In this document: in pieces, positions 2,423-24,151 of the stretch | Position numbering within the stretch: the first letter of the stretch is position 1 | Layout: each line of letters starts with the position of its first letter | Source of the DNA: a virus | Direction: 5' to 3' (one strand) | DNA: 55,125 nucleotides | Virus record (IMG/VR): IMGVR_UViG_3300034351_000046 | Coordinates: 1-55,125 of that record | Notes under the pieces: model-generated | The model's database searches: none | The model's input: the letters and a program-made list of their open reading frames with translations, nothing else | Told to the model about the DNA's origin: nothing | Made by a program: the position numbers and the translations under genes

Positions 2423-3628
2423 CTAGTCGTTTTCCTGCCGGTCCATGGCTTCCAGATCTGGGTCCTGAGTGTTGAAACGCTCGGGCGTCATGGCCCAGTA
2501 AGCTTCGCACTGCTCGGGCGTCACAAGCGCATGATAATGGTTCATGACGATGTCCGGGCTGTTGCCCATCTCAGCGGCAGTCCGGGCCAGATCGTGAGAC
2601 CGAGCCAGGAAGTAACTCCCGAAGGAATGGCGCATGATATCGGTAGGCCACGCATCGAACCCCAGGTGATCCCGGAGCGGCAGCATTTTCTTCTGCTTGC
2701 CCTTGGCGAATTCGGCGCCGATTTCGCAACCAAGCTTCCGGGCCAGCCGCACCCAGGCCAGGGCCGTGGGTTCCATGTGAATCATCCGCGCACGGCGCGT
2801 CTTGGTCTGCCACTTCTTGAGGGCAATCAAGCCCTTGTCGAGGTCGATGTCCTGCCAGCGTAACCGGTCGATTTCCTCCGGGCGGCAACCACAGAAAAGG
2901 CCGATGGTCACATAGCCCAGCTGGTGTAGTTGGTCCGGTGTCTCGAGGATGAACCGCAGGGCCTTGTCGACCTGCTCAGGGCTCATGATCGTGGCGCCTT
3001 CGTCCTTGACGATTTTACGCTTCGGGATTGAGTCACTGCTGCACGCCTGGACGGGCGCCCAGCCGCGCTTGTAACACAATCCGAAAAAGCTCCGGGCCGA
3101 GTCGCGATTATTGTTCCAGCTGGTGTCGTTGTCGTATCGATCCAGATACTCCAAAACATCCTCGGTTGTGATCTTGGCCACGGGCATATTCTCCCGGCCC
3201 TTGGCAAAGCGCCGGATCCAGCGGCCTGCATTGGCGCAGTGCATCTCAGAGTTACCCTTCCGGCGCAGGTGCGCTTCCCATTCGATCCCGGCCTTGGCCA
3301 AGGTCATGGACTCGGGCGCCAGCGCACCGTTGCCATTGGCCGAGGACTTTCCGGCCAGCCATTCGTCGATGACCTGGGTCATGGTGTAGTTGGGCGCGGC
3401 CTTGGTCAACCGGTCCAGGGCAACCATCATCTCCGCACGCTTGCTGCTCGAAAGGGCCAGCCACGCCTCACCGGCTCGGCGGCTCATCTCCTGCTTTTCG
3501 CGTGCGGCTTCCTCGGCCTCCTGGCGCGTCTTGTAAAAGCGCCGGATCCGAGTGCCGCCCGTGGGCGTGTAATCGAGGACAAAGCGCGTGCATCCGCGCT
3601 CGGTTTGTTTTCGGATATTCAGTTTCAT
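2423..3628 (-). CDS. int: Tyrosine-type integrase
   Basis: A 401-residue site-specific recombinase that would integrate and excise the phage genome. An N-terminal arm-binding-like region (KQTERGCTRFVLDY) is followed by a SAM-like core-binding domain and a C-terminal catalytic domain. Catalytic features seen are the first Arg in GLFCGCRPEEID, a Lys-containing KTRRARM hairpin, RHSFGSYF (second Arg) and the nucleophile Tyr in NHYHALVTPEQ. The usual HxxR is DIMR here, so the first His is replaced by Asp; related integrases I know often have Asn at this place. The start at 3628 follows the 17-nt shared leader. The putative attachment region lies directly upstream. Confidence 0.93.
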   Translation of the reverse strand: MKLNIRKQTERGCTRFVLDYTPTGGTRIRRFYKTRQEAEEAAREKQEMSRRAGEAWLALSSSKRAEMMVALDRLTKAAPNYTMTQVIDEWLAGKSSANGNGALAPESMTLAKAGIEWEAHLRRKGNSEMHCANAGRWIRRFAKGRENMPVAKITTEDVLEYLDRYDNDTSWNNNRDSARSFFGLCYKRGWAPVQACSSDSIPKRKIVKDEGATIMSPEQVDKALRFILETPDQLHQLGYVTIGLFCGCRPEEIDRLRWQDIDLDKGLIALKKWQTKTRRARMIHMEPTALAWVRLARKLGCEIGAEFAKGKQKKMLPLRDHLGFDAWPTDIMRHSFGSYFLARSHDLARTAAEMGNSPDIVMNHYHALVTPEQCEAYWAMTPERFNTQDPDLEAMDRQEND

Positions 3629-3641
3629 TGCAGTGTCTTTC
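3625..3641 (-). promoter_or_regulatory. Conserved leader GAAAGACACTGCAATGA, copy 3 (integrase)
   Basis: The same 17 bases as before two downstream genes of this operon. All three genes could be co-regulated at translation, or the block could have spread by duplication. Confidence 0.6.
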
Positions 3642-3686
3642 ATTTGGTTTTTTGTTTCGCTCGGTTGTGGAGACCGAGGTGTCAAG

Positions 3687-3705
3687 TTACGGACAAATGC
3701 GGACA
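3687..3705 (+). repeat. TTACGGACA / ATGCGGACA box pair 1
   Basis: TTACGGACA (3687-3695) and ATGCGGACA (3697-3705) lie one helical turn apart, 60 bases upstream of the integrase start. The same two nonamers recur in reversed order at 3896-3915. Confidence 0.5.
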
Positions 3706-3895
3706 AAGTCAACGAATATCTCTGACAATCTTTTCGACATCTCCGCGCATCTGCCCGGAGTCTGGATTATGTGCGTTTTCCTGGGGAATTGCCATGTTTT
3801 CCCTGATTTCAGGGCCTTTTGAATGAGGCGCCAGATAGCGTGCCTGGCACCTGATAAAAGTGCCGTTTTCCTTGACTTTTCCCCAGGATGCGCCA

Positions 3896-6561: not shown

Positions 6562-7099
6562 GTTCCCCGATCAACCCGATACCCAAGGCCATCCGGTAGA
6601 ACTTGGTCCGCTCCAGCGGACTGTCCACATGGAAGGTGGGATCGATCACTGCCATGTTCCATGGGCCGGCGGGATCATCGGCCTCCTCCAGCTTGGCTGA
6701 GATGACAATGGCCAATTCGTTTGTGGCCTCCACGCCATTTGGGCTCGAAGGAATGCTCGGAATCAGCAGGCTTGCCTCCTCGGAGAAATCGCTTTCCAGT
6801 CCACTGGTATTGAAAGCGGTGGCCGCAAAGTAGTAGACCAGGCCGCGCACAAAGTTGGTGATGATACAATTGGTCACGCTCACCGAAACGATTCCGTTGG
6901 TGAGTGTGTTGTGGAGGGTGACCACTCGAGTATAGGAACGGGAGTTGGTGCCGTCGTAGATCTTGTAGCCGGCAATGTCCAATTCTGGATTGGCATCCCA
7001 GGCCACCAGGACTCGAGGGGGCTTGTTGGTGGGGGCCAGCTGCCCCACGGCCGTAAAGGCCAGGAACAGCATCATGAGAAAAAGGATGGTTCGTTTCAT
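6551..7099 (-). CDS. Secreted FN3-domain protein
   Basis: A 182-residue protein with a clear Sec signal peptide (KRTILFLMMLFLAFTAVGQ, cleavage likely near residues 20-21) and one fibronectin type III-like domain (LVAWDANPELDIAGYKIYDG ... YYFAATAFNTSGLES). The C-terminus contains TKFYRMA, similar to the FYR endings I know from secreted Verrucomicrobiota proteins; this is the main host hint. It is the last gene of the long minus-strand virion operon, starting directly at the stop of the polyvalent gene. Export rather than packaging is suggested by the signal peptide. It may act on the cell surface or bind glycans or neighbouring cells. Confidence 0.75.
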   Translation of the reverse strand: MKRTILFLMMLFLAFTAVGQLAPTNKPPRVLVAWDANPELDIAGYKIYDGTNSRSYTRVVTLHNTLTNGIVSVSVTNCIITNFVRGLVYYFAATAFNTSGLESDFSEEASLLIPSIPSSPNGVEATNELAIVISAKLEEADDPAGPWNMAVIDPTFHVDSPLERTKFYRMALGIGLIGEPIP

Positions 7100-10000
7100 T
7101 ATCGGGTTCGAGTTTCCCTCGGATACTTGTTGTCATCGGTGTAGGTGTTCACGCCTGCGCCGAAGATGTTGAGAATGGTAAGGATGGTGCCCTCGGAGAA
7201 TCCTCGCGCTTTGTAGATGTCCACGATATCCGCAAAGGGCAGCGGCACGAAAAGGTCCCGCATGATGTTGGGGATGTTGGTGGGGCGCCCCAGGAAATCC
7301 TCGCGCGAAATGATATCCAGGGCCACGCCGATGTCCGGGCGCAACTTGCTTCGGCCGAAACGGACCAGGACATCGACCAGGTTCCCCACCCCGTAAGCGT
7401 TGGCCGCATCGAAATCGATGGTCCTGCCTTTAAGCGTGGTGGTCGAGTTGGTCAGGATCCGGCTGGCCAGCACGATGGGCTGGATGAAGCCGCCCCACAG
7501 ATCGATCCGGGTATTGCCCCGCACGATCTTCATGAAGTCCGAGGAGGTGGGCGGGACCTCGTCCTTGTCATCGAACAGGGTCGAGATCAGGTAGAGGAAG
7601 GCCGCGCTGGAAAGGACACGCGCATATTCCTTGGCCACGATCCACCTGGCACGCTTGCTGTGTGCGAAGTCTCCCGCACCCCACAGGGGCTGGCCGGTCA
7701 AAAACTGAACCCGGCTCATCAGAAGCTTGGGCGCCCAGATGAATTCGGAGAATCCTCGAGCCGCAGCAGGGGGGACATAGCCACGGCCCGTGGCCACGTT
7801 GACCCAGTTACCCAGGATCCGAAGTTCGTTTTCGGTGGGAGGCCGATCGGAGAAGTTCTCCTGCAAGAGCACATCAGCCAATTCAGACCGGAGGACATTC
7901 AGGAAAGTGGCAAAGGCGCGATTCGAGCCGGCCACCGGAATGGCCAGGGCCCGGAAAGGCAGGCCGGCCACCTTGCCCAGCTTGGACTTGCCACCCCACA
8001 GACCCATGTTGGCCCACTCATCGAAGACTGACCTGGCGTTTTCCTCGGCTCGATTGAAGGTGGGGGATTCAATGTCGGTAAACTCGATCCCCATAATCTT
8101 GTAAGCGCCCGACTCGTAGTTGGGTTTGCGCCGAATGGCCGCATTGATCCGCTCAGCCCTGGCCCTCGAACTGGCTGCCTTGAACATGTCAATGAAGGCA
8201 CGCGCAATGCGTGGCGTGGTCTTGATAGGGGAAGTGGGTAGCCGCATCCCCAAGGAAAGAAGGGCGACAATTCCCTGCCGGCTCCCGGAGAAGTCATAGC
8301 TACTTCGGAGGTTGGTAACGGCCGTTCGCATGCGCCGAATGCCATACCAAACCTTCTTCATGCCGGTCAGGTTCTTGATCCGCTCAGCCTCGGCCTGGTT
8401 GTAGAAGTCGCGCTGGATTCGTTCCCGTTGAGCAGTGAGATCAATCACATCCCGATTCTGGGTCACTTCCTTGGGCGGCTCCTTCCGGCGCCGGGGCGAG
8501 AAATCCTGATCGGCAATGCGCTGCTTGTAATCGGCAATCTGCCGGCGCAGCTGAGAGACGCGCAGGTTGATGGCCTTGGTGACCGGATCCGGTTTGCCTG
8601 GGCCCAGTCGTTCGCGCATCTCCTTGCGCTGGTTCTTGAGGTCCTCGAGCCTGGCCGCCATCCTCTGGTTGCTGGGCTTGTCCTCGGGCCGGATCTTCTT
8701 GGACTTGGGAAAGACATCCTGGTTGGCCAGCTGGTTCTCCAGCTTGCGGATCTCACGGTCCAGCTGGAACCACCGCTTGTAGTCCTCCTTGGTGGTTAGA
8801 TCGGGCGGGGGATTGATCTCGCGCTGAGCCCACTCCTGCTCGGCCCGGAGTTGGGCAATCCTGGCACGGAGGGCCTCGAGCTTGGCGCTGGTGACCGGAT
8901 CCCGCTTGTTCGCACTGGTCCTGCGTCCCTCGACCAGGTCCTCCTCCATCTTGGTGATCATCCGCTCGGCCGCACGCTCGGCCCGTTCGATGCGCTGGAG
9001 ATCGGTCAGGCCTGGCGCCTCGAAGATCTGGGCATACTCTTCCCGGACACGATCGTATTCCTCCTTGAGGGCCTCGAGCTCCTCATCGGTCTGCTCGCGC
9101 CGGTCCTCGCGCTGGGCACGCATCCGCTCCCTGGCCTCCCAGTTGTTGGGATCCATCTCCCACCGGAGATCGGTAATCCGGTTCCGATACCAGGTCTTGC
9201 GGGAATCCAGGTAGGTCTTCTGCTGGTATTTGGCATCGGTGATGACCTCGCCATTGATCTTCTTGGCCCGATTCAAATCCCGCTCGAGGCGCAGCTGTTC
9301 ATCACTCTTCTCATCAGCCAGCCAGCCAGTCTTGGGGATCGGCCGCTTGGCTTCGGCATCGAGGATGTTGGAGAAGATTCGGATCTGGGCCTTGAGGTCC
9401 CGGATCGTTTTGCTGACATCGTCCTGCGCCGGCTCACGCACTCGGCCGCGCCCGGAGATCAGGTCTCGGGTTTCCTCGATCGTGATCCGGGGGACTACCT
9501 CGGAAATCATTCTGTGGACCGTCTGGGTGAGCTCGTCCCTGGTCATGAGGGGATCCAACTCCACCAGGCCGCGCACCAGCCGCTGGGTGGGATAGTAGAG
9601 CTCGCTCTGCCTGCTGCCCACCGGCTCGGTCGAGCTCGCCTCATGGGCCTGGATCTGCCGGAACTTGGCCATAGCCGACTCAACGATCTGTTCCGGCCCC
9701 ATCTCCTGCTGGGTCCGCGCCGGCCGCTCTACGACCCGTGAGGCGCGTGCGCTGGCCAGATCTGCGCGGCCTCGAGTCAAGCGCGTGGTCAGGTCCTGCT
9801 GGGAAGCCGGCCACACCTGGTCGAGGTAGGGCGAGATGTTGGGCCCGAGCTCCTCCACCATGGCTTCGTTCCAGTCGACCCGATCGGTGATGTTCTGGGC
9901 CAGCTTGGAACCGCCGATGATGGCCAGGTCCCGGAGGACCTCCTCGGGCAGGGGAGTGGGCCCCTCGGCCACGCTGAACCGGAGAGGTGTCTGGGGAAAG

Positions 10001-13000
10001 AGCCGCTTCCACTTGACGTTGATCCGTTCCTTGGCCGTCTTGGCGCTGTTCTGGTAGGACTTGACCCATTCCTCGGCAAACTTCATCACCTCGGGATTGA
10101 CCCTGGCCACCTCATCCTCGGCTTCCCCGATCGTGCGGTTGGCCTCGGCCTGCTGGAGGCGTGCAATCTGGGCATCGAGCTTGATGCTCAATTCCTGATA
10201 CTTCCTGGCTTCCTTCTCCACCCGTCGAAACAGTTCCTGCTTCTCATCCCGGCTCAGCCGTTTCCACCCCTGCGCTTGGCGCATGGTGTGATACATGACA
10301 TCGGGAGTGAAATCCCACTTGAGGGCCAGCTGCCGCGCCCGGAAGGCTCGGGCCGTAAGGGTGCCACTGCGCGTGGTGATCTCTCGAAGCTGGACCAAAG
10401 CCTGCCCCCAGAAATCGACCTGGGCGCGTGCGGCTGCCGCCTCGGCCACCAGGCCTTTGCTCTCGGCTGCCTCGGCGGCTTTGGAGGCCTTCCAGATCTC
10501 AGTGCGGAGCTCGAGCATCCAGTAATCCAAGGCCAGGACCTCCTCATCGGAAAGCATGCCAGGCCGTTTCTGCTCACGATCCACGATCGAATCAACCCAG
10601 GTGGGATCCCTGGCAATCCGGCGTTGCACCGTATCGAGCAATTCCTGGTCTGGCTTCCCGAGGAAATCCCTCATGGGAGGATGGCCCATTTCTCCGAGGG
10701 CCTTGTCCATGTCGGCATTTCGGATCGCCAGGAAATCGAAGTTGGGATCCGGCATTCGGCTAATCGAGTAGCGTGTAGTGTAGTCCTTATCGTGTTCCTC
10801 GAGGCCAGATGTTGGCGGGGGTGGCCCTTCCTCGCTTGCGTTGTGCGGCTGAGCCCAGGCACTCGCATCATTGAGCCGCCCCGTCTCGGCGGCGTACTGC
10901 ATGCTGCCCGTTCCCGTGGCAACCTCCATGGCCTCCCGGAAGAACTGAGACTTGGTGGCGGCCGCCATCGCATTGTCGAAGTCCCCGGCCTGCATCAACT
11001 CTTGGCTGAGAGCCTTGGCTTCAGCCTGCTGTTGGCGCAGCTGGTCCACCTGGTCAGGCGTGGTCATCGTGCGGCCCAGGCGAACCGCTTCTCCAGTGAT
11101 CCCGTCCGGGATGGTCCGGGCCCACTCCGCAAAAGCCGGCGCGTCCATGGCTCCCACCTGGTCGACAGTCAACCGGGGCTGCCCCGAGGTCACCGAGTAG
11201 CGGGAGTTGGCTTTTTGCACGGCGCGTTTGGCCGCATTGACCCCCTCGGTCAAGGCCTGGTCCAGGGACAGCTCCTTGGCGATTTCTCCCGCCATGAAGA
11301 TGCGATGGAAGCCGGCCGAATCCGCATACTTGGTGTCCATGTTGCGGAGGAAATTGGCATACTGGCGCCAGCTGTTGGCCACTCGGGAAACGACTCGCGC
11401 CTGGTCCTTGGTTGTGGCCACCCAAAGGAGTTCCATCGACCTTGGATTGGAGACGCTAATCGATTTGACTTTACCCGAATTGAATTTGGACACTGAACCA
11501 TCAAGCTTGGATGCGGCCATCTCATAGGACTTGGCAGCAACAGCCGCCTGCATCTTGGCCCTGTTGGCCGGCAACCCCACTCGAGACATCTCGACCAGGG
11601 GCCCGACCGGGGGCTCGACCTTGCCGCTCAGGATGTCATTCATCGAGAACAGCTGGCCATCTGGCGTCATGGCGATCGTGGATCCGAGGGCAAAGCATGG
11701 GCCACCACCCACCAGGCAAGTCGCGCATCCATTGAGGGAAGGCCCGGACTCCAGGGCACAATAACAAGCCGGGGTATTAAGCATCCCCTCGGGATCGTTG
11801 ATGAGCTTGGCCTCAGCCAATGCATTGACCACCTCATTGGTCCGATTGATATGCAGCACCATCGGCACGCCGGCCCTTCTGGCTTCCAGGAGCACCGGGA
11901 TGTCATCCACATCTCGCACCAGGTAGGAGTTGACGATGCCGCGCTCGGCCAGGTTGTTCTTCAGGAAATCGATTCCATATTGGTCGATGTATTCCCGGTA
12001 AAGCTGCCGATCGATCGAGCCCATCTTGAAAACGGCCACGCCGTTCTCGACATCGTTCCGGTCATACTGCCCGTTGCTGATGGAATCCAACCCGATCGTG
12101 CCGGGGGCGCGTGACACATGCGACCGACTGAAGATGTGAACAGGACGGTCGAGCTCCTTGATGGCCTGGTTGACCGCAACTGCCTGCCAGGGAAACGTGG
12201 TGTCGCCTGCGCCATTGATACGCAGAAAGGCCTGTTCTTCCTTGGGCATGTTCCTGATGAAACGGGCCACATGGGTGCCGACTTTTTCCGGCTCCATTGC
12301 CGTCACCAGGGAATGGCGCACTCGAGACTTCACGCCCACTGCCGGATTGCGAAGGCCCTTGGCATAGCAAACCGCGCACCCTTCACTTGGCATGCACGTT
12401 CCCAGTCCGAAATCCCAGGACACCCCGCCGGCTTTAGAATTGGAGGCCAGGAAATTGGCGCCGATGCTGGAGTTAGGGTCATCGATGTCCTGGAAGACCC
12501 GATTGTATTCTGCCTTGATGGCATACCAGAAGTTCTTATCCACCACGTAATCTGGCGGCACTCTGGCATCGAGGGTTTTGCGGATGGCCGCAATGCCTTC
12601 CGGGCTGTAGAACTTGCGGATGTATTCGATTAGGGATTGCCCCTCGCGTGGTTGCTGCCAGGGATTTTCCCTGGGGTCCACCAGGTCAGAGAGAGCCTCG
12701 CCTTCCCGGTAAAGAACATCCTGCACCGTCTTGAAGGCATCCTCCATGTTCATGCCTTCGGTTGGAGGCACGTATTCTCGGGCGCCGGCAAGCGAGGTCT
12801 TGCCCCTTACGTCCGCATAACTGTAACGGATCGTGTTGATGCTGGAGAGGGGGCTGCCCGGAGGGTAGGTTTCCTGCTCGCGCAATGCCTGCAACTCGGC
12901 TGGAGATTCAGCAATTCGTTGGGCACGCTGGATGCCCTTGCTGATCATGTCAGCAATCTCGTAGTCCGAGTAAGCTCGCTTGGACCAGCCGGGGATCCGC

Positions 13001-15288
13001 ATGGCACGCGCAACCTGGCGAATCTTATTGGCCACCCTTCTCCAGAATGGCGTAACCACGCCCCACCTGGCGACTCGCTCGGCTTCATAAGCCAGCCACT
13101 CCTCCCCGATTTGATAGATATCAGTGGTAGGGATCCGGTTCCTGGCTGCTACATCGGCTCGATCATTTGGGCTGAGGGTCCGATACACTCGGTTGACCAG
13201 GGCCGTAAATGCGGTGGGTCCGAGGGCCTGGCGAAGACCCAGATGGATGCCCACTTCATGGGTGACCTTTTCCCGGACCAATAGACGATCCCCAACCGGG
13301 AATTTCTTGGCGTTGAAAATGACTCGGCCGTTTGAATAGACCGCATCGGCATCATCGAATTGAATCCCGCGCTCGGCCAGGTCCTGCTTGACGATGTCTG
13401 GCAGCTGGGATCCTTCGTCGACCACCTCCACCAGGTTAAGTGCCCACGGGAAATCCCGTTCGAGGTTGGTCTTCAAGCCCAGGGATTCCTGGGTCACCTG
13501 GGGCTCGGTGATTAAGGGTGCGGTGGGCTCGGTCACGGGAGCCTGCGTGACGGATGGCCTGGTTGTTTGGGCGGGAGATACCCCGGCAGCCTCGGGGGCA
13601 GCCGTTGGCGCTACTGCCGCCTCAGCCTGGGGGGTGGGCTGAGCCGTGGGGGCAGCCTCAGCTGCCGGGGTGGGCACTGCCGCCTGAGTGGGAGCCGGCG
13701 CAGGCCGAAGGGGAATGGTCTGCGCCACTTCTCGGGCGGCTCTCTCCCGACCTTGAAGCTGTTGTGTGGGGGTGGTTGGCACCCCCGGCTCCTGGCCGGC
13801 CGTCAGGCGTGTAGTCATCACATCGGCCGGCTGGCCACGAAGGGCTGCCTGCCGGATGGCTGCATCTTCTGCCAGCTGCTGGGCGGTGCTGGTAAGCCCA
13901 ACTGACAAAGCCTGGTTCACAGCCTGGGCACCCTGGATATCGGCCACTCGGGGCATGATCTCCTGAGCGGTGCCGCGCACTGGGCTCGGCTGAACTGGGA
14001 CCATCACTCGGATGTCATCGCCTGTAACACTCTTAGTTTTGAGGGAAACAAGCTGGGCCTCGGGCCCGAACTCCACCAGCCTTCGGATTTCTTCCCGAAA
14101 CTGTTTGAGCTCGGCTCGGTTTTTGGTCACCCGATCGATGGCTGCCGATCCCTCGAAAGTTCCACTGACACCGCCACCAATCAGTACCCCGCCCACGCCG
14201 GCCATCAGGATTTCCTTAACGGCCTCCTCGACGGTCTTATCGGGGTTATAGGTCATCCACTCATAGACCGACTGCAAAAACTGATCAACGACTTCCTCGG
14301 CGCCTTCATAGCCAGCTTCCTTGGCCAACCGCATGATGACGCCCTTGGCGACCAGGTCTTTCTTTGCGGCCGTCAGGACCTCTTTACCTGTTCGACCTGC
14401 GCCGGCCGTCACTACTGCCGTGATGATACCGGAAATCAAACCGTCCCCGGTGGCATGCCTTCGGGCTTCCTCTTCGGATTCACCCCGTTCCCGTCGCATC
14501 TCATAGGATTGAGCGTAAGTGTCGCCAGCCTGTTGGAGGCCTGACATGGCGATCATTGCCGGGAATCCAACCGGCGCCACGGCCACGGCAGGAATGGCAG
14601 TTCCAAAAGTCTGAACGAGGCCTTTGATCTCCTGGGGGCCAGGTGAATTCTGGGAGATCACATCCAAGGCATCCAGATATTCACCTGGCACATTGGCAGT
14701 CTCCTCGAAATGTTTGATGATCGGATCGAATTTCTTGGCTAGGGATTCGTAGAGCTCCCTGTTCTTCTTCGCCAACTCGGGCCCCAATGGAGGCGCCCAC
14801 GCACCAGGCATTTGTTGACCCGGAACTTGCTGCTCAGCTATCCCCCTGGCCAGGCTTTGAGGTAATGCCCCAAAAAGCCATCCCCCTATGCGCTGCATGT
14901 TCCTGGAAATGTCAGGCCAAAGACCCACTAAACCGAGCTTTGCCTGCGTGGCCACGTTTCCAAGACTTGGATATTCAACTCCAGGTTTGTAGATAGGGCC
15001 GGGAATCATGTAGCCCATGCCGAATTCGATTGGCACCTTGGGCTTTTCAGGAGGGGGCTCCTCGCCAGGCAAAAGCAGAGGGGCCTGGTAGAGATCAGAT
15101 GGCTTTTTGGCCCAGGCCTTTCCCGGCTCGGTCAAGGGCTTGGCCGGCTCATCGAAAGTGAGAGGAGCAGTGTAGATGTCCTCCTCTTCGCCACCAGGCT
15201 CATCGAAAGTAAGTGGAGCCGTGTAGATGTCCTCCTGCTCGGGAGAATCAAAAGTTAACGGCGCTGTGTAGATGTCCTCATTCGGCAT
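7099..15288 (-). CDS. Giant polyvalent virion protein (2,729 residues) with metallopeptidase-like and GP88-like domains
   Basis: The largest gene of the window, likely injected with the DNA or an internal virion protein. Features in order: four DIYTAPL-type repeats (residues 4-71); a Gly/Ala-rich membrane-active-looking stretch (about 225-375); a Pro/Ala/Gln-rich linker (about 490-590); a zincin-like motif THEVGIHLGLRQALG with His677/Glu678/His682, as in large polyvalent phage proteins; a Cys-rich domain (about 950-1200: GTCMPSEGCAVCYAKG ... LRINGAGD ... CYCALESG ... CATC) resembling the GP88 family; long charged coiled-coil regions (about 1650-2350); and a C-terminal globular part. The domain calls are by motif only. 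No lysozyme or transglycosylase motif was recognised. It overlaps the upstream gene by 11 nt. Confidence 0.85.
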   Translation of the reverse strand: MPNEDIYTAPLTFDSPEQEDIYTAPLTFDEPGGEEEDIYTAPLTFDEPAKPLTEPGKAWAKKPSDLYQAPLLLPGEEPPPEKPKVPIEFGMGYMIPGPIYKPGVEYPSLGNVATQAKLGLVGLWPDISRNMQRIGGWLFGALPQSLARGIAEQQVPGQQMPGAWAPPLGPELAKKNRELYESLAKKFDPIIKHFEETANVPGEYLDALDVISQNSPGPQEIKGLVQTFGTAIPAVAVAPVGFPAMIAMSGLQQAGDTYAQSYEMRRERGESEEEARRHATGDGLISGIITAVVTAGAGRTGKEVLTAAKKDLVAKGVIMRLAKEAGYEGAEEVVDQFLQSVYEWMTYNPDKTVEEAVKEILMAGVGGVLIGGGVSGTFEGSAAIDRVTKNRAELKQFREEIRRLVEFGPEAQLVSLKTKSVTGDDIRVMVPVQPSPVRGTAQEIMPRVADIQGAQAVNQALSVGLTSTAQQLAEDAAIRQAALRGQPADVMTTRLTAGQEPGVPTTPTQQLQGRERAAREVAQTIPLRPAPAPTQAAVPTPAAEAAPTAQPTPQAEAAVAPTAAPEAAGVSPAQTTRPSVTQAPVTEPTAPLITEPQVTQESLGLKTNLERDFPWALNLVEVVDEGSQLPDIVKQDLAERGIQFDDADAVYSNGRVIFNAKKFPVGDRLLVREKVTHEVGIHLGLRQALGPTAFTALVNRVYRTLSPNDRADVAARNRIPTTDIYQIGEEWLAYEAERVARWGVVTPFWRRVANKIRQVARAMRIPGWSKRAYSDYEIADMISKGIQRAQRIAESPAELQALREQETYPPGSPLSSINTIRYSYADVRGKTSLAGAREYVPPTEGMNMEDAFKTVQDVLYREGEALSDLVDPRENPWQQPREGQSLIEYIRKFYSPEGIAAIRKTLDARVPPDYVVDKNFWYAIKAEYNRVFQDIDDPNSSIGANFLASNSKAGGVSWDFGLGTCMPSEGCAVCYAKGLRNPAVGVKSRVRHSLVTAMEPEKVGTHVARFIRNMPKEEQAFLRINGAGDTTFPWQAVAVNQAIKELDRPVHIFSRSHVSRAPGTIGLDSISNGQYDRNDVENGVAVFKMGSIDRQLYREYIDQYGIDFLKNNLAERGIVNSYLVRDVDDIPVLLEARRAGVPMVLHINRTNEVVNALAEAKLINDPEGMLNTPACYCALESGPSLNGCATCLVGGGPCFALGSTIAMTPDGQLFSMNDILSGKVEPPVGPLVEMSRVGLPANRAKMQAAVAAKSYEMAASKLDGSVSKFNSGKVKSISVSNPRSMELLWVATTKDQARVVSRVANSWRQYANFLRNMDTKYADSAGFHRIFMAGEIAKELSLDQALTEGVNAAKRAVQKANSRYSVTSGQPRLTVDQVGAMDAPAFAEWARTIPDGITGEAVRLGRTMTTPDQVDQLRQQQAEAKALSQELMQAGDFDNAMAAATKSQFFREAMEVATGTGSMQYAAETGRLNDASAWAQPHNASEEGPPPPTSGLEEHDKDYTTRYSISRMPDPNFDFLAIRNADMDKALGEMGHPPMRDFLGKPDQELLDTVQRRIARDPTWVDSIVDREQKRPGMLSDEEVLALDYWMLELRTEIWKASKAAEAAESKGLVAEAAAARAQVDFWGQALVQLREITTRSGTLTARAFRARQLALKWDFTPDVMYHTMRQAQGWKRLSRDEKQELFRRVEKEARKYQELSIKLDAQIARLQQAEANRTIGEAEDEVARVNPEVMKFAEEWVKSYQNSAKTAKERINVKWKRLFPQTPLRFSVAEGPTPLPEEVLRDLAIIGGSKLAQNITDRVDWNEAMVEELGPNISPYLDQVWPASQQDLTTRLTRGRADLASARASRVVERPARTQQEMGPEQIVESAMAKFRQIQAHEASSTEPVGSRQSELYYPTQRLVRGLVELDPLMTRDELTQTVHRMISEVVPRITIEETRDLISGRGRVREPAQDDVSKTIRDLKAQIRIFSNILDAEAKRPIPKTGWLADEKSDEQLRLERDLNRAKKINGEVITDAKYQQKTYLDSRKTWYRNRITDLRWEMDPNNWEARERMRAQREDRREQTDEELEALKEEYDRVREEYAQIFEAPGLTDLQRIERAERAAERMITKMEEDLVEGRRTSANKRDPVTSAKLEALRARIAQLRAEQEWAQREINPPPDLTTKEDYKRWFQLDREIRKLENQLANQDVFPKSKKIRPEDKPSNQRMAARLEDLKNQRKEMRERLGPGKPDPVTKAINLRVSQLRRQIADYKQRIADQDFSPRRRKEPPKEVTQNRDVIDLTAQRERIQRDFYNQAEAERIKNLTGMKKVWYGIRRMRTAVTNLRSSYDFSGSRQGIVALLSLGMRLPTSPIKTTPRIARAFIDMFKAASSRARAERINAAIRRKPNYESGAYKIMGIEFTDIESPTFNRAEENARSVFDEWANMGLWGGKSKLGKVAGLPFRALAIPVAGSNRAFATFLNVLRSELADVLLQENFSDRPPTENELRILGNWVNVATGRGYVPPAAARGFSEFIWAPKLLMSRVQFLTGQPLWGAGDFAHSKRARWIVAKEYARVLSSAAFLYLISTLFDDKDEVPPTSSDFMKIVRGNTRIDLWGGFIQPIVLASRILTNSTTTLKGRTIDFDAANAYGVGNLVDVLVRFGRSKLRPDIGVALDIISREDFLGRPTNIPNIMRDLFVPLPFADIVDIYKARGFSEGTILTILNIFGAGVNTYTDDNKYPRETRTR
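15076..15279 (-). repeat. Four-copy (E/S)D(I/L)Y(T/Q)APL peptide repeat
   Basis: Copies begin at residues 4, 19, 36 and 64 of the polyvalent protein. The first three share EDIYTAPLTFD exactly; the fourth is SDLYQAPLLLP. At DNA level the block GTGTAGATGTCCTC recurs. A docking or packaging signal at the extreme N-terminus is plausible. Confidence 0.75.
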
Positions 15289-18409: not shown

Positions 18410-20034
18410 ATTCGTGCAAGTGTGATTTGGAAGTCAGATGAACCTCCAACATATGGCCCACCAACCGGTCCCGCATAGGCGGCTTGCGCCAGAACTGTCA
18501 ATTCGTAGGTGCTGACCACGCCAGCTGGAATCGTAAATGGGAAAGTGTATTCCCCCGCCGGCACTGCTGCACTAAAAGTATTGGCGATAACCAATGAACT
18601 TGGGAGCACCCGACGCATGTAAATGGTTTCACTGCCACACTGGATTCCGTTGGTTGCCGGAGGTACCAGGTTGGTTTTTTGGACAGACACCCTTAGCTCG
18701 CAATTGATTGCAGGCCCTCCGGTGTTGTCTATCATAAAGACTCCGCTCTGGGATCGGCCCACCGAATTTCCACATGGGCTAGCAGTGCCAGGCAGGCTTG
18801 CCCCGTTCACCGAATAGGCGCCGGCTCCACTTGCATAGGCCACTCCACACCCGACTTCGCTAACGCTATTGTTCCAGACCCAAGCCGCAAAAAGATTATC
18901 ATCGATGAAGATCTGAAAATCCTTTTCACAGGTGCCGCCCTCATTATCAGTGACCCGGATTCTGAAATTGTAGGTCCCAGTCGAAGTGGGAATCCCTGAA
19001 ATAGTTCCGGTGGATGCATCGATGGCAAGACCTGGTGGGAGATTGCCACTTGCAAGAGTTTTGGTAAATGTCTTGGGATCCCAACCACCCAAGGTTTGGA
19101 TCGTGGTGCTATACGGGACAGTGACCTCACCGCTTGGCAAAACCTCCGCGCTGGTGATCTCCATGACTGAAATAAAATAGACCCGATAGGTGTAGGTTCC
19201 ATTCCAATCGGTCATGGTCAACCGGAAGCCATAAGTGCCAGCCTTGGTAAATGTCCCATAGACTCGCATTGCCGTGGTCTGTGGCTGGAAATTGATTCCG
19301 GGAGGAGGAATTCCAAAGACTTCCCAAGAGACCCGACCAAAGAATCCACCGACTTTATCCGGGACCACAAATTGGCTGATTTCCTCATCCACACAAGCAC
19401 TCTTAAGGAGTGGGGTCAGGCAGCCGATTCCGTAGTTAAGCCATTCGGTGGCCTGGGTTCGCGCTCGGATATTGGCCGCATCCTTGTTGGCTGCCCAAAC
19501 ACGGCAGGCAGGAACAACGGCACCTTTCTTTCCATCCACACAAATAGCCTCGATCGAGGTCTCATCATTGCAGTCAGGTTTCTGCGCCTTTGGAAGGATC
19601 CTGGTTGGGGTTGGCCCAGGATTGTCAGGATCGAGCGACTGGCAGAGCTCGGTCAAATAGTTGTTGCACCAATTCTGGGCTAACGCATCAGCTTGAGCCT
19701 GGCTGTCTGCCCAGAAGGTTCCATAGGGAATCGTGAATGAATACTGCTGACCATCCGGGCAGGTGCGGTAACAGGTGTAGGCTTCATTGCCGAAAAGCTT
19801 ATTGGCCTCGCAAATCTTGGCCAGGTTCTGAGCGCACAGATCGGCATCGGCCTGGCTGATAGTAGAAATGCATAAACCATAGCATGCAGTGAAGACATCG
19901 TTGTCACCATCCCAGATCTGGTTTGGGAAATAAGTGCTCCTGAATAGCTCGCGATCTGGATCCTCAGAAGAGTAATTGCCCAGACTGTTTGCGTCCTCGA
20001 TGCAGATTGCCTTATTTGGACAAAGGATATTCAT
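18406..20034 (-). CDS. Cys-rich tail protein with putative Ig domain
   Basis: A 542-residue protein. The first 230 residues are rich in Cys and Trp/Tyr (CPNKAICIEDANSL, CYRTCPDGQQYSF, CNNYLTELC), with repeated motifs containing AQADALAQNWC. Residues about 335-415 form a bacterial putative-Ig (He_PIG-like) domain with its diagnostic NLPPGLAIDASTGTISGIP and YNFRIRVTDNEGG. The C-terminus is beta-rich. The start at 20034 was chosen because it overlaps the upstream stop (ATGA); a 30-residue longer frame exists. A tail-tip or adhesin role is inferred from position and domains. Confidence 0.7.
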   Translation of the reverse strand: MNILCPNKAICIEDANSLGNYSSEDPDRELFRSTYFPNQIWDGDNDVFTACYGLCISTISQADADLCAQNLAKICEANKLFGNEAYTCYRTCPDGQQYSFTIPYGTFWADSQAQADALAQNWCNNYLTELCQSLDPDNPGPTPTRILPKAQKPDCNDETSIEAICVDGKKGAVVPACRVWAANKDAANIRARTQATEWLNYGIGCLTPLLKSACVDEEISQFVVPDKVGGFFGRVSWEVFGIPPPGINFQPQTTAMRVYGTFTKAGTYGFRLTMTDWNGTYTYRVYFISVMEITSAEVLPSGEVTVPYSTTIQTLGGWDPKTFTKTLASGNLPPGLAIDASTGTISGIPTSTGTYNFRIRVTDNEGGTCEKDFQIFIDDNLFAAWVWNNSVSEVGCGVAYASGAGAYSVNGASLPGTASPCGNSVGRSQSGVFMIDNTGGPAINCELRVSVQKTNLVPPATNGIQCGSETIYMRRVLPSSLVIANTFSAAVPAGEYTFPFTIPAGVVSTYELTVLAQAAYAGPVGGPYVGGSSDFQITLARI

Positions 20035-22286
20035 AGCGTCGAAGCTGGAGTTGCACAGGTCAATCCCTGGTAGGGCGCCTTCTGCCACGGGGTGGCGTGA
20101 ACCATGATTCCCCGAATCCGGCACCAGCCTTTCATAACGATCTTCATTTGGAACTGGTAGCCGATATCCATTGGGCGGCTGTTCATTTGATTACAGCCGG
20201 GATGAGGTGGCTTGGGAAGTGTCACTGGAAACTTATAGCCTTCGCCATAAGCCTGCTCTGGATAACAAACCGGGTTCTCCAGGTCCTCACAAGTGGATCG
20301 AGCGGAACAGAATTCGGTTCTATACCAAAATTGCCAGCAGGCCTCCGCATCCGGCCGATAGTAGACATCCATGTAAACGGTTCCATAAACACGATCCACC
20401 CAGATCTCCCCGCCATCCAATCGCTTTAACTCGAACTCACGCCCCCAGGTCCATGCTGGCGTTTCGACAAACCATTCAACCCGATTGTCACCTTCGTCAT
20501 TTCGCGTGAAAGACGTAAGCTCCCAAACCTCGATCCCCCCATCCTGGGCCAGGATGACCGCAAAGGCACGTTGTAGGCCGCCATAGTCCCCCTCAAAAAG
20601 TTGGAGAATCTTAACTCCCTGCCACCAGCCCTCCCATGCCGGCGCCTGGCGATTGCGCTCGATGATGTCCTCGAGGGACGACACCAGGTCGAAATCTAAA
20701 ACCGCCAAGCCGCCAAACGCAGTCCCCACCTCGGTAACCTCCGGGAGCACTGTTTGAAGCATTCGGTTATCAAAGTAAATCCCGCTGGCCGTGGAAAGCA
20801 GAGCTCGATCATTGAAGTTGAGAAGGCGATTCAAGTTGCGACTGATCGGCGTATTGCCCCACTGGCTGAAATCCCTCACAGCCATGAACAGGCTTCGGTA
20901 GCCATCCCAAGAAAGGTAGAAAAGATCCCCGTTGATGTTGACGATTGAACGCTCGCCATAGGATCCATTCCTCAACTGGGCCACCCGTTGCAATGGCTCG
21001 GTAGCTGTGATCCAAGCTGACCTGGTGACCGGAACCGAAAGGGAATAGATGGTCTTGCGCGTACAGGCGAACAGCTGCCCCTCACCTAATGCGGTGTCCA
21101 GGTTGGCTGTATGCCGAAGGGCCCGGATGATCCCATCAGAGGTGGGCACCACAAAGCCATCCCCGGCCAATGCCAGGGGGTTCTCTGTCACCTTGAGAAT
21201 CGAATCCCGATAAGCGTAGGCAAGGGTGCCTGCCGGCCCCAGGACGATATCTCCAGCCGTGTATTGCCGATCTTGGGCATACCAGATGCGGCCCATGTAA
21301 TAGTCCATGGCAGTGGCCGCAGGGAGCTCGGAGACGGTCAGGAGATTGACATCGGCAGCAACAGGATCACCTGGCGTGGCCGTCACGTTGACCAGGTAGA
21401 CATGGTTGGCGGCCGGCGCCGGCTCGGGGGCAACGACAGTGATAGTCCAAGCATCGCCAAAGATTGTGACTGCCTGGGGAGCGGCCACCGCTGGATCTAC
21501 CCAGACCGAGAAAGCGGTGGTGGCCCCCACAGCCGGCACGGTGAAGCTGGCCAGGGTTGTGCAAAGCAGATTGCCGCCGGCATCCAGGATCTGCGTTCCG
21601 GCAGGGACGATGTAGCCCACCGGGGCGGTGGCCGCATCATTACGAAGAGTAATCGATTGGGTGTTTACGACTTGGATCCATGATTCGCCATCGATGAGCA
21701 CAACCTGGTTGGCGACTCCAGTATAGGGACCGTAAAGAGTGACATCCTGATAGTCACCCACAGCCGGCACGTTGAAGCCGGCAGCTATGACACCAACCAC
21801 GCCGCCAGGTCCGGTCGATCTCCGAAGCCTGGTGCCATCCCAAATTAAAGGCAGCGTGACACCATCCCCGGCCTGCTTGATCATGAACTCTTCACCCTGA
21901 GTGAAGTATGCCTGGGAAACGCTTGCCGGATCCGACAAACCAAAGATAGTGGAAAGGTTGGCTACGCTGTCGTCCAGATCCACGCGCACCTGGTAGAGGT
22001 CACCACCAATGGAGAGAATCAAGTAAGGGAAAGTGCCGTTGATGAAATTATCGTAGAGCCAGCCCCCCTGGTAGAGCGCGTTCCCAGGGTGAACTCGCGC
22101 CCTACGGATCCATCCGGTTCGAGGCAGAATGCCGCCCCCACGCATCGTGGCATTGGTGGCCCAGGCCAACTGATTTCTCCTCAGTCCTTCCGGGAAAAGC
22201 TCCGAAGCAATGGTTGGAACCTTACCGGAATCGACACCACCTATCCAGTTCCACGACCCGTCCGTGATTCGGACATTTGAAGCCAT
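20031..22286 (-). CDS. Tail nozzle / tail tubular B-like protein
   Basis: A 751-residue, beta-rich protein starting right at the divergent terL promoter. The N-terminal WNWIGGVDSGKVPTIASELFPEG followed by NQLAWATNATMRGGGILPRTGW resembles nozzle or stabilisation proteins of short-tailed phages, which open with a similar G-G-x-N-x-R-x-G-G-x-x-P-R-x-G pattern. Two Ig-like inserts rich in Val/Ala/Pro (about residues 165-300) are followed by propeller-like strands with repeated TRKTIYSLSV and GDLFYLSWDG segments. A Cys-rich C-terminal domain ends it. It would form the tail tip below the adaptor. Confidence 0.65.
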   Translation of the reverse strand: MASNVRITDGSWNWIGGVDSGKVPTIASELFPEGLRRNQLAWATNATMRGGGILPRTGWIRRARVHPGNALYQGGWLYDNFINGTFPYLILSIGGDLYQVRVDLDDSVANLSTIFGLSDPASVSQAYFTQGEEFMIKQAGDGVTLPLIWDGTRLRRSTGPGGVVGVIAAGFNVPAVGDYQDVTLYGPYTGVANQVVLIDGESWIQVVNTQSITLRNDAATAPVGYIVPAGTQILDAGGNLLCTTLASFTVPAVGATTAFSVWVDPAVAAPQAVTIFGDAWTITVVAPEPAPAANHVYLVNVTATPGDPVAADVNLLTVSELPAATAMDYYMGRIWYAQDRQYTAGDIVLGPAGTLAYAYRDSILKVTENPLALAGDGFVVPTSDGIIRALRHTANLDTALGEGQLFACTRKTIYSLSVPVTRSAWITATEPLQRVAQLRNGSYGERSIVNINGDLFYLSWDGYRSLFMAVRDFSQWGNTPISRNLNRLLNFNDRALLSTASGIYFDNRMLQTVLPEVTEVGTAFGGLAVLDFDLVSSLEDIIERNRQAPAWEGWWQGVKILQLFEGDYGGLQRAFAVILAQDGGIEVWELTSFTRNDEGDNRVEWFVETPAWTWGREFELKRLDGGEIWVDRVYGTVYMDVYYRPDAEACWQFWYRTEFCSARSTCEDLENPVCYPEQAYGEGYKFPVTLPKPPHPGCNQMNSRPMDIGYQFQMKIVMKGWCRIRGIMVHATPWQKAPYQGLTCATPASTL

Positions 22287-22369: not shown

Positions 22370-24151
22370 ATGCCGGAAGACACAATCTTCAAGTATAATG
22401 CGATCTGGCCGGCTGATGCCACTGACCTGGCGATCGAGATGGCGTGCATCCAACAAGGGGGCACCTGGTTCAAAGATAATAGGGAATGTGGGGCAGGTTT
22501 AGAGCATCACTATTCAGAAATGCGGAGGATTCTCTGGCCTCACTTAGATGATCACAGATGGGTGCAGCTATGTCTTGAGGAGGTCATCAATCATAAGATC
22601 GTGGTGCTGATGGGCGCCGGCTCCACTGGCAAAACCAATTTTGCCGCCTGGTTCTCTCTTTGCGAGTACTACTGCTTCCCCGAGCACACTTGCATTTTGG
22701 TGAGCTCTACCGATCTCCGAGGCCTTGAACTGCGTGTCTGGGGTGAAATTAAAAGCCTGCATGACCTGGCCACCAGCCGCTATGAGCTCCCCGGCCACCT
22801 CATCGAATCCAAGCACGCCATCTCCACTGACCTGGTGGATGAAGGATCCATCCGAGATCTCCGCAAAGGAATGATCGGCATTCCCTGCGTTCAAAACGGA
22901 AAATTTGTAGGCCTCGGAAAATACTTAGGCATCAAGCAGAGGAGAATGCGCCTGGTAGCAGATGAGGCCCAATTCATGGGATCCGGGTTTCTCAACGCCT
23001 TTGCCAACCTGGACAAGAACACCGATTTCAAAGCTATGGTTCTGGGCAATCCCAATGACATCCTGGATCCACTTGGCCGCGCGGCCGAGCCGAAGGATGG
23101 ATGGGGATCCCACATGGAACCCGAGAAGACCACTGTATGGGATACTCGGTTCATGAACGGAAGGTGCGTCAACCTGGTGGGCACCGATTCCCCCAATTTC
23201 GACTACCCGGAAGATGAACCCACCAAGTTTCCTTACCTGATCTCCAGGGAAAAGATTGCCAATACAAAGGCATTCTTTGGGCAGGATTCGGCCGAGTATT
23301 ACTCCCAGTGCATTGGCACCATGAAGATCGGCGCCATGGCCAAACGGGTACTGACTCGGGATCTATGCATTCAATTCAGTGCGAATTTGAGAGACGTTGT
23401 CTGGGATGGGTTCCCGATAAAAATCGGAGGCCTCGATGCTGCCTATGGTGGAGACCGCTGCATGTGCGGCTATATCGAATTCGGGAAGGATCGAGAACAA
23501 AAAACCAAGCTGTTGATCCACCCTCCAGTAGTGGTGCCCATCCTTGGCCGGAAGGATCCCGAGGAGGAAATCGCCATCTTCGTCAAAGACTACTGCCATC
23601 GGATTGGGATCTCCCCTGAGAATTTCTTTCATGACTCCACGGGCCGTGGATCCCTCGGGACAGCATTGGCCAGGATCTGGTCCGCTCATTGCAATCCGGT
23701 TGAGTTTGGAGGATCCCCAACCGAGCGGCCGGTCTCCCTGGAGCATTACATCTGGGATGAGAAACAGCACCGCAAACGGCTCAAAACCTGCCGGGAGCAC
23801 TATTCAAAATTCGTCACTGAGCTCTGGTTCTCGGTGAGGTATGCCGTGGAGGCCGGCCAGGTCCGGGGGCTGCCAGAAAGCGTCATGGAGGAATTCTGCA
23901 TGCGCGAATGGACCAAGGTGAAGGGGGACAAGATCGAGGTTGAAAAGAAAGAGGACATGAAAGAGCGCGTGGGCCGCTCCCCGGACGAAGCTGACTGGTG
24001 TTCGATTTGCGTGGAGGGCGCCAGGCGCCGAGGCTTTACCATCAGCCGGCTCACCAACGCAGAGGCAGAAACAAGAAATCGTGAGTGGATGCTCGACCTA
24101 CAACGGAAGGCATCCACTCACCGATCGGGACAGTTGAGTTACCGGAGGTAA
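22370..24151 (+). CDS. terL: Terminase large subunit
   Basis: A 593-residue DNA-packaging motor. The ATPase shows Walker A GAGSTGKT (residues 82-89), Walker B LVADEA (Asp198-Glu199) and a coupling-type segment VLGNPND (about 224-230). The RNase H-like nuclease shows Asp356 in IGGLDAAYGGD, Asp422 in FFHDSTGRG, and the family's GRSPDEADW near the end (Asp539/Asp542). Length and motif order are complete. It is encoded on the plus strand in the middle of the minus-strand virion genes, with its own upstream region holding a 10-bp inverted repeat. No small terminase was identified next to it. Confidence 0.93.
   Translation: MPEDTIFKYNAIWPADATDLAIEMACIQQGGTWFKDNRECGAGLEHHYSEMRRILWPHLDDHRWVQLCLEEVINHKIVVLMGAGSTGKTNFAAWFSLCEYYCFPEHTCILVSSTDLRGLELRVWGEIKSLHDLATSRYELPGHLIESKHAISTDLVDEGSIRDLRKGMIGIPCVQNGKFVGLGKYLGIKQRRMRLVADEAQFMGSGFLNAFANLDKNTDFKAMVLGNPNDILDPLGRAAEPKDGWGSHMEPEKTTVWDTRFMNGRCVNLVGTDSPNFDYPEDEPTKFPYLISREKIANTKAFFGQDSAEYYSQCIGTMKIGAMAKRVLTRDLCIQFSANLRDVVWDGFPIKIGGLDAAYGGDRCMCGYIEFGKDREQKTKLLIHPPVVVPILGRKDPEEEIAIFVKDYCHRIGISPENFFHDSTGRGSLGTALARIWSAHCNPVEFGGSPTERPVSLEHYIWDEKQHRKRLKTCREHYSKFVTELWFSVRYAVEAGQVRGLPESVMEEFCMREWTKVKGDKIEVEKKEDMKERVGRSPDEADWCSICVEGARRRGFTISRLTNAEAETRNREWMLDLQRKASTHRSGQLSYRR

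Follow-up and report, generated by a model that had tools for sequence, protein, structure and literature searches.

Two kinds of phage protein that bear on the present locus are already known, namely polyvalent proteins with HEXXXH peptidases and GP88 domains within proteins of more than 1,000 residues. Iyer et al. 2017 (PMC5512222) recognized a HEXXXH set among the metallopeptidases (MPTases) of polyvalent proteins and discussed self-processing; a term search of the main text of that paper returned no gp88, iron-sulfur, radical SAM, Fe-S, cysteine or TIM barrel, nor SAM as a word. GP88 is a Pfam family named just "Gene product 88"; a search of 50,697 phage records matched D29 gp88 in 376 of them, and relatives of a GP88 alignment are encoded in at least 557 viral stretches. 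Among the literature matches listed, no title or abstract opening names GP88 as a radical SAM protein, and a radical-SAM-like fold would give this large unknown a concrete, testable chemistry. Here, we describe a virus record of 55,125 bases (the window, meaning the whole stretch of DNA that was analysed) in which a GP88-like domain is embedded in a giant protein of polyvalent type (Table 1). Within the literature and databases searched, three aspects are new: the interpretation of GP88 as radical-SAM-like, the swap of a cysteine module at one place, and the occurrence of a CX5CX2CYA GP88-like module in a polyvalent-type protein.

Table 1. Features of the giant gene and its surroundings (window positions; residues are those of the giant protein)
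Feature	Position	Strand	Evidence
Integrase, 429 aa, downstream of giant gene	2423..3712	-	phrog_1, E 9e-26; 49% to L040
Polyvalent-type protein, 2,729 aa	7099..15288	-	ORF list, translation; relatives L002 and L036/L040 in same gene order
Conserved C-terminal region, residues 2331-2729	7102..8298	-	53% identity to L036
Highly charged segment, residues 1960-2330, 48% DEKRQ	8299..9411	-	composition; common to L036
Exchanged module, residues 796-1478, without counterpart in L036	10855..12903	-	BLAST alignment limits
GP88-like, probably radical-SAM-like Cys domain, residues about 935-1235	11584..12486	-	Pfam GP88 23.4-23.7 bits; 72% identity to L002
Second Cys group, C1175 C1177 C1188 C1191 C1198	11695..11766	-	all five also present in L002; may be an auxiliary cluster or a zinc site
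RINGAGD, residues 1023-1029, counterpart of GP88 RIHWDGD	12202..12222	-	R, G, D invariant in A5; in register in hhalign
CX5CX2CYA loop, C965 C971 C974	12367..12396	-	kept in L002; stands at the place of canonical GP88's CX6CX3CYA
HEXXXH zincin-like metallopeptidase domain (putative), residues about 600-795	12904..13491	-	53% identity to L036, 43% to L002; alignment A4
EEWLAYEAE, residues 729-737, candidate third metal ligand	13078..13104	-	E729, E730, A733 invariant in A4, 5/5 rows
HEVGIHLGLR motif, residues 677-686 (H677, E678, H682)	13231..13260	-	HExxxHxGLR in 10/10 sequences
N-terminal tandem peptides, residues 4-74 (EDIYTAPLTFD x3 + SDLYQAPLLLP)	15067..15279	-	translation
751-aa neighbour	20031..22286	-	weak match to MW202497 'phage stabilization protein', E 6e-6, 22% identity
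Terminase large subunit	22370..24151	+	phrog_2, E 4e-8

Relatives, gene order and the HEXXXH part of the giant protein

Scans of viral contigs identified two close relatives, L002 and L036, both from metagenome 3300035161. L036 (= L040, L124) carries a full counterpart of the giant protein, a 2,770-residue open frame, and L002 (= L004, L037, L041) encodes 1,733 residues in a frame that is open at the contig end and is 47% identical to the window protein over 1,000 columns, rising to 72% within the cysteine domain. With the whole giant protein as query, viral contigs gave no useful yield. L003 was considered as a relative and rejected, with only 36% over 43 residues and surrounding DNA that encodes a repetitive protein of a different look. 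Genes of 751, 572, 339, 352, and 344 aa lie ahead of the giant gene in the same order in the window, L002, and L036/L040; the terminase is common to the window and L040, and the L002 contig ends short of that position. The 751-aa neighbour is about 78% identical in L002 and L040 and has no PHROGs match, the remaining neighbours tested gave no informative PHROGs match, and most neighbours are without any family match. Residues 2450-2716 of the giant protein match (28%) a 1,582-aa giant protein of phage MW202497, which is encoded downstream of portal, capsid, and stabilization genes. That the window protein is delivered with the phage DNA, as the first-pass annotation had proposed, is a purely circumstantial case, built from the gene order common to three phages near the terminase and the probable stabilization gene. 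The MW202497 protein (L125) contains HELGHH at residue 436, which combines HExxH and HExxxH, and has no cysteine; elsewhere in the window, positions 50802-52913 encode a primase/helicase-type protein (phrog_2597, E 4e-51, with AAA_25).

The single protein of 2,729 residues described at first pass corresponds to one uninterrupted minus-strand ORF of 2,729 codons, and its tandem N-terminal peptides are equally real, with three exact copies of EDIYTAPLTFD and a looser fourth one. The pattern [YF].APL is absent from every other window ORF of at least 80 aa, and this N-terminal peptide region has no BLAST match in L002 or L036. The long coiled coils attributed to the same protein were not confirmed: residues 1960-2330 are strongly charged, but a crude heptad scan gave no qualifying stretch. 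An identification of the C-terminal region as LPD38 was not supported—when A8 was compared by hhalign with the C-terminal ends of L038 and L039 (Bacteroides phages), the probability was 0.3, with slices that were maybe not ideal. R[YF]S tripeptides occur at residues 821, 1363, 1506, and 1770, partly near domain borders (four of the R[FY]S type against 0.99 expected; 1/300 shuffles had as many), and are raised also in L002 and L036, though not in the other seven of the ten sequences scanned; in L038, VRFR/IRFR occurs at four places (0/300 shuffles). Such tripeptides of the R[FY]S type could possibly be processing or linker marks.

In alignment A4, which holds five rows (window, L036, L002, and Bacteroides phages L038 and L039), the H, E, and H of HExxxH, the G-L-R behind it, and E-E-x-x-A downstream are invariant in all five. 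HExxxHxGLR is kept in each of the ten sequences examined (the window protein and nine relatives), among which L042/L043 and L038/L045/L046 are near copies of one another in the HExxxH stretch; L042-L046 were found by a pattern on the EE stretch, of which the HE motif formed no part. Pfam clearly identifies L038 as a polyvalent protein (InPase, LPD38, PBECR5, ART-PolyVal), and no Pfam peptidase model matches the HEXXXH region of the window protein or the same region of L038. The zincin-like motif reported earlier is best restated: it is a real and conserved motif of metallopeptidase type, but as HExxxH it exceeds the usual zincin HExxH by one residue. The published HEXXXH set of polyvalent MPTases is characterized by HExxxH with a conserved Glu after it, and HEVGIHLGLR fits that peptidase type; the polyvalent reading with a zincin-type motif is supported to this extent, the zincin fold being putative.

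The cysteine domain and its likeness to GP88

All eight cysteines of the giant protein (positions 965, 971, 974, 1175, 1177, 1188, 1191, and 1198) fall within residues 965-1198, a clustering that none of 200,000 random placements equalled. L002 keeps 8/8 of them and has no further cysteine among its 1,733 residues, so that the proposed check on ligand conservation revealed no variable ligand between the two proteins; the Cys domain is also their best-conserved stretch (72% against 47% over 1,000 columns). GAGD stands at residues 1026-1029. The Pfam GP88 model (PF17338) scored 20.6 bits (E 4.5e-4) against the whole protein and 23.4-23.7 bits (E about 5e-5) against slices of the domain, just under the curated cut-off of 24.4 bits (D29 gp88 scores 188 bits), and the L002 domain, although 72% identical, gave no match to it up to E 5 with HMMER filters on. 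The cysteine pattern is CX5CX2CYA followed by CxC..CxxC..C, which differs from the CX6CX3CYA and C-terminal C..CxxCxxC of GP88; the GP88 motif R-x-[HN]-x-x-GD and then [YF][ST][RK] is present, giving a strict signature at residues 965-1055. Of the resemblance to GP88 first noticed, a remote relationship thus appears real, but membership does not, and on these sequence features the domain is GP88-like, not a GP88 member.

For comparison, we took D29 gp88, 18 bacterial loci, and, out of at least 557 viral loci, the 80 best. The canonical CX6CX3CYA and C-terminal C..CxxCxxC are kept in 77/77 of the viral GP88 proteins added in this way, a set selected for closeness to D29; among bacterial members that reach full Pfam scores, some depart from this spacing. 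Five bacterial relatives (L030, L031, L033, L034, and L035) are without the C-terminal Cys group, so this group can be dispensable. In alignment A5 (window, L002, and 18 GP88 proteins), the first and third loop Cys, the A after the loop, the R, the G-D, and a W are invariant; across 56 GP88 sequences, the first and third loop Cys, R, and GD are invariant and the second Cys is kept in at least 90%. A signature, C..C..C[YF]..R-x5-D..[YF][ST][RK], occurred in 109 of 781 open frames of at least 150 aa, all 109 belonging to GP88 loci or to the contigs of the three giant genes, and in 0/200,000 shuffles of the window domain; it was drawn up post hoc, after the sequence had been seen, and misses 5/56 GP88 sequences of A7.

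A custom HMM built from the 56 GP88 sequences missed the window domain (best domain -0.7 bits), which was outscored by 4/200 shuffles and by several unrelated window ORFs, and hhalign of A7 against A1 was weak (probability 8.7%, E 0.004), although it aligned the Cys loop, R..GD, and [YF][ST]R with their counterparts. Tblastn of the Cys domain or module returned no useful match in phages or plasmids and no GP88 phage record; a profile search of 398 genomes from one phylum, run without a positive control, and sequence searches of solved structures gave no useful result.

Stand-alone GP88 genes were seen at six Geodermatophilus/Blastococcus loci (L021-L025 and L027; 73-89% identical to L021), where several neighbours of L021 are common to L023 and only fragments are common to L022. 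In this bacterial family, 7/112 genomes lie above the GP88 cut-off, and G080 is borderline and DUF5131-like. Streptomyces phage GP88 genes (L014-L016) lie near the genome end, those of L015 and L016 beside ParB-like nuclease and Lsr2-like genes.

DUF5131 provides a bridge in sequence between GP88 and radical SAM proteins. In four and then 112 bacterial genomes, four frames of 254-279 aa matched GP88 weakly, with scores (20-24 bits) that reach the cut-off at best. One of these, L126, is a DUF5131 protein (337 bits) with a Pfam GP88 score of 23.6 bits, below the cut-off, and the other three are 69-71% identical to it; in NCBIfam, the match of L126 is to TIGR04471 (radical SAM mobile pair protein A), with E 1e-15 and a score of 57.8 bits against an equivalog cut-off of 355. 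The hhalign comparisons were all weak (A10-A1, E 0.01; A7-A10, E 0.02; A5-A10, E 0.03), and that of DUF5131 with the window domain (E 0.01) covered only the Cys loop. Because the GP88 score of the window domain is of the same size as that of L126, its most careful placing is as a probable remote member of a wider GP88/DUF5131/radical-SAM-like group.

Structure prediction at the level of domains, which the first-pass annotation had suggested, succeeded for D29 gp88 and not for the window's Cys domain. The model of the latter (20 sequences) was poor, with a pLDDT of 47.1, and its structural look-up had a best Z of 4.5 and no radical SAM row among 50. The D29 gp88 model (56 sequences; pLDDT 93.1, pTM 0.90) runs from a strand-rich start through the Cys loop, helices, and a RIHWD strand before GD to more strand-helix units. 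Foldseek against the PDB gave a best E of 0.016 and none below 0.001; its first 20 rows include spore photoproduct lyase, IspG, and one entry that we take to be NifB. When Foldseek's best 1000 chains were realigned by VIA, the top 20 rows were all radical SAM enzymes (Z 7.4-6.2) from seven families—viperin, spore photoproduct lyase, SuiB, QueE, EpeE, NifB, and TigE—and radical SAM enzymes made up 28 of the best 50 rows, where SuiB, QueE, TigE, 7bi7, and similar entries with silent titles are presumed to be radical SAM proteins. The lead is small, since the best Z is 7.4 and non-radical-SAM enzymes follow from 6.2, and a Z under 8 can reflect merely a common arrangement. In BFVD, the matches of the D29 gp88 model with E <0.001 were proteins with a GP88 domain, one Gp37/Gp68-like protein, and one DUF7227 protein; phage proteins that carry a radical SAM name followed at E 0.02-0.05. 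With the D29 gp88 sequence as query, neither the radical SAM models of Pfam (up to E 5) nor the models of NCBIfam (up to E 1) gave a match. Classical radical SAM enzymes have the motif CX3CX2C; the spacing in the window domain is neither this nor CX6CX3C, with three loop Cys present and kept in L002.

Exchange of the cysteine module

In BLAST comparisons, the window protein and its L036 counterpart align only at window residues 599-795 (53%) and 1479-2728 (48%), with no match in L036 for residues 1-598 and 796-1478. L002 aligns with L036 at L002 residues 150-666, 681-919, and 1328-1733, and the intervening residues 920-1327, which bear the L002 Cys domain, are missing in L036 between matching flanks. 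Because the alignments break at these segments, we read the protein as a mosaic of exchangeable parts; because L036 lacks the module yet keeps the HEXXXH domain, the two are separable. The polypeptide thus unites at least two unrelated domains, the HEXXXH domain and the Cys module, which is one criterion for a polyvalent protein. Variable metal ligands, one of the outcomes named in advance as counting against the first-pass annotation, were not seen between the window and L002, but canonical GP88 has another Cys spacing and L036 lacks the module.

At the same place, L036 carries a replacement module (residues about 860-1495) that has only three cysteines (979, 1026, and 1029; C...CVLCY) and no family match. 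This replacement fits the loose signature C..C..C[YF]..R-x5-D..[YF][ST][RK], which appeared in 0/100,000 shuffles. Its local alignment score was 37 with the window module (shuffle mean 34.0; 73/300 shuffles as high) and 36 with the L002 domain (88/300 shuffles as high), so only the loose signature links the window module to the L036 replacement. Used as a query, the L036 module found nothing useful in phages and, in viral contigs, nothing except itself.

Interpretation and comparison with known systems

We regard it as about an even call that the giant protein is a modular, probably virion-delivered polyvalent protein with a divergent radical-SAM-like module, whose own fold is predicted by way of the D29 gp88 model. 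On this reading, the protein, apparently encoded beside virion genes, would probably be packaged or ejected with the DNA, as related families suggest, and by the same analogy its HEXXXH metallopeptidase would most likely cut the polypeptide into working pieces. The module that follows the peptidase would fold as a TIM barrel of radical-SAM-like type and be a divergent member of the wider GP88/DUF5131 group, as the GP88 model indicates; a [4Fe-4S] cluster able to cleave S-adenosylmethionine would sit on C965, C971, and C974, and C1175-C1198 would form a second metal site. Once inside the new host, the enzyme would have its cluster rebuilt and would chemically alter a peptide, a nucleotide, or a nucleic acid in a way that benefits the phage. 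The nearest folds act on nucleotides, DNA photoproducts, and peptides, which shows no more than that such substrates are possible. The earlier guess at an iron-sulfur enzyme is plausible given the resemblance of the GP88 fold to radical SAM enzymes and the DUF5131/radical SAM sequence bridge, and it has become likelier because the fold modelled for a true GP88 resembles that of radical SAM enzymes and all eight cysteines are kept in the one close relative, but the window domain's own model lends it no support.

The same cysteines could instead bind zinc or a structural metal in a degenerate radical-SAM-like barrel with dead chemistry, serving for binding or as a scaffold, whether in the virion or in the host. 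A spacing that departs both from canonical GP88 and from the classical radical SAM motif would suit such decay, as would the bacterial GP88 relatives (L030, L031, and L033-L035) without the C-terminal Cys group; we nevertheless find it rather doubtful, since L002 keeps all eight cysteines and R..GD although overall identity is 47%, and the 56 GP88 sequences have loop Cys 1 and 3, R, and GD without exception and Cys 2 in 90% or more. Another alternative is that the domain is an independent metal-binding fold that came to look like GP88 and radical SAM proteins by convergence around C..C..CYA. The poor model of the window domain, the failure of its tblastn to return a GP88 phage record, the custom GP88 HMM that misses it, and the weak hhalign all lean that way, but three separate motifs in the same order and at similar spacing, found in 0/200,000 shuffles with a signature drawn up post hoc, together with a Pfam GP88 E of 5e-5, make convergence unlikely in our judgement.

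A further alternative concerns the whole protein, which may be a structural protein, internal to the virion or used in ejection, its zincin-like part maturing the particle and its Cys domain idle after entry. The identical gene order in three phages and the resemblance of the C-terminal part to the MW202497 giant protein downstream of portal, capsid, and stabilization genes speak for this reading; an exchangeable module between conserved flanks fits cargo better than a structural part, and we consider a solely structural role improbable. The preferred reading of a modular polyvalent protein with a radical-SAM-like module can be carried further, in a form that we offer only tentatively and think more doubtful than true: phages would carry and inject a ready-made radical SAM enzyme as exchangeable cargo of a self-cutting polyvalent protein, and GP88, DUF5131, the window module, and the L036 replacement would be one early-infection cargo family derived from radical SAM enzymes. 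If a GP88-like domain does travel as virion-protein cargo, an iron-sulfur, SAM-dependent activity would join the effectors that phages may inject.

Among described systems, the giant protein resembles the phage-type polyvalent proteins (PMC5512222), as a very long multidomain protein near apparent virion genes with HEXXXH and then a conserved-Glu stretch. Its HEXXXH-domain relatives include the Bacteroides phage protein with InPase, LPD38, PBECR5, and ART-PolyVal. With PF17338 (D29 gp88 and its relatives), the Cys domain shares a three-Cys loop ending in CYA, R-x-[HN]-x-x-GD, [YF][ST]R, and a C-terminal Cys group; it differs from the D29-like members, which stand alone, measure about 240 aa, and carry CX6CX3CYA, in being part of a 2,729-aa protein, in its CX5CX2CYA loop, and in a score below the cut-off. 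GP88-domain phage proteins of about 1,000 residues are already present in BFVD (A0A6J5RM19_1, 1,122 residues). DUF5131 (PF07505)/TIGR04471 is similar in the CX6CX2CYA loop of L126 and in the order of strand motifs, and differs in that L126 falls far under the TIGR04471 cut-off and that DUF5131 matches the window domain weakly.
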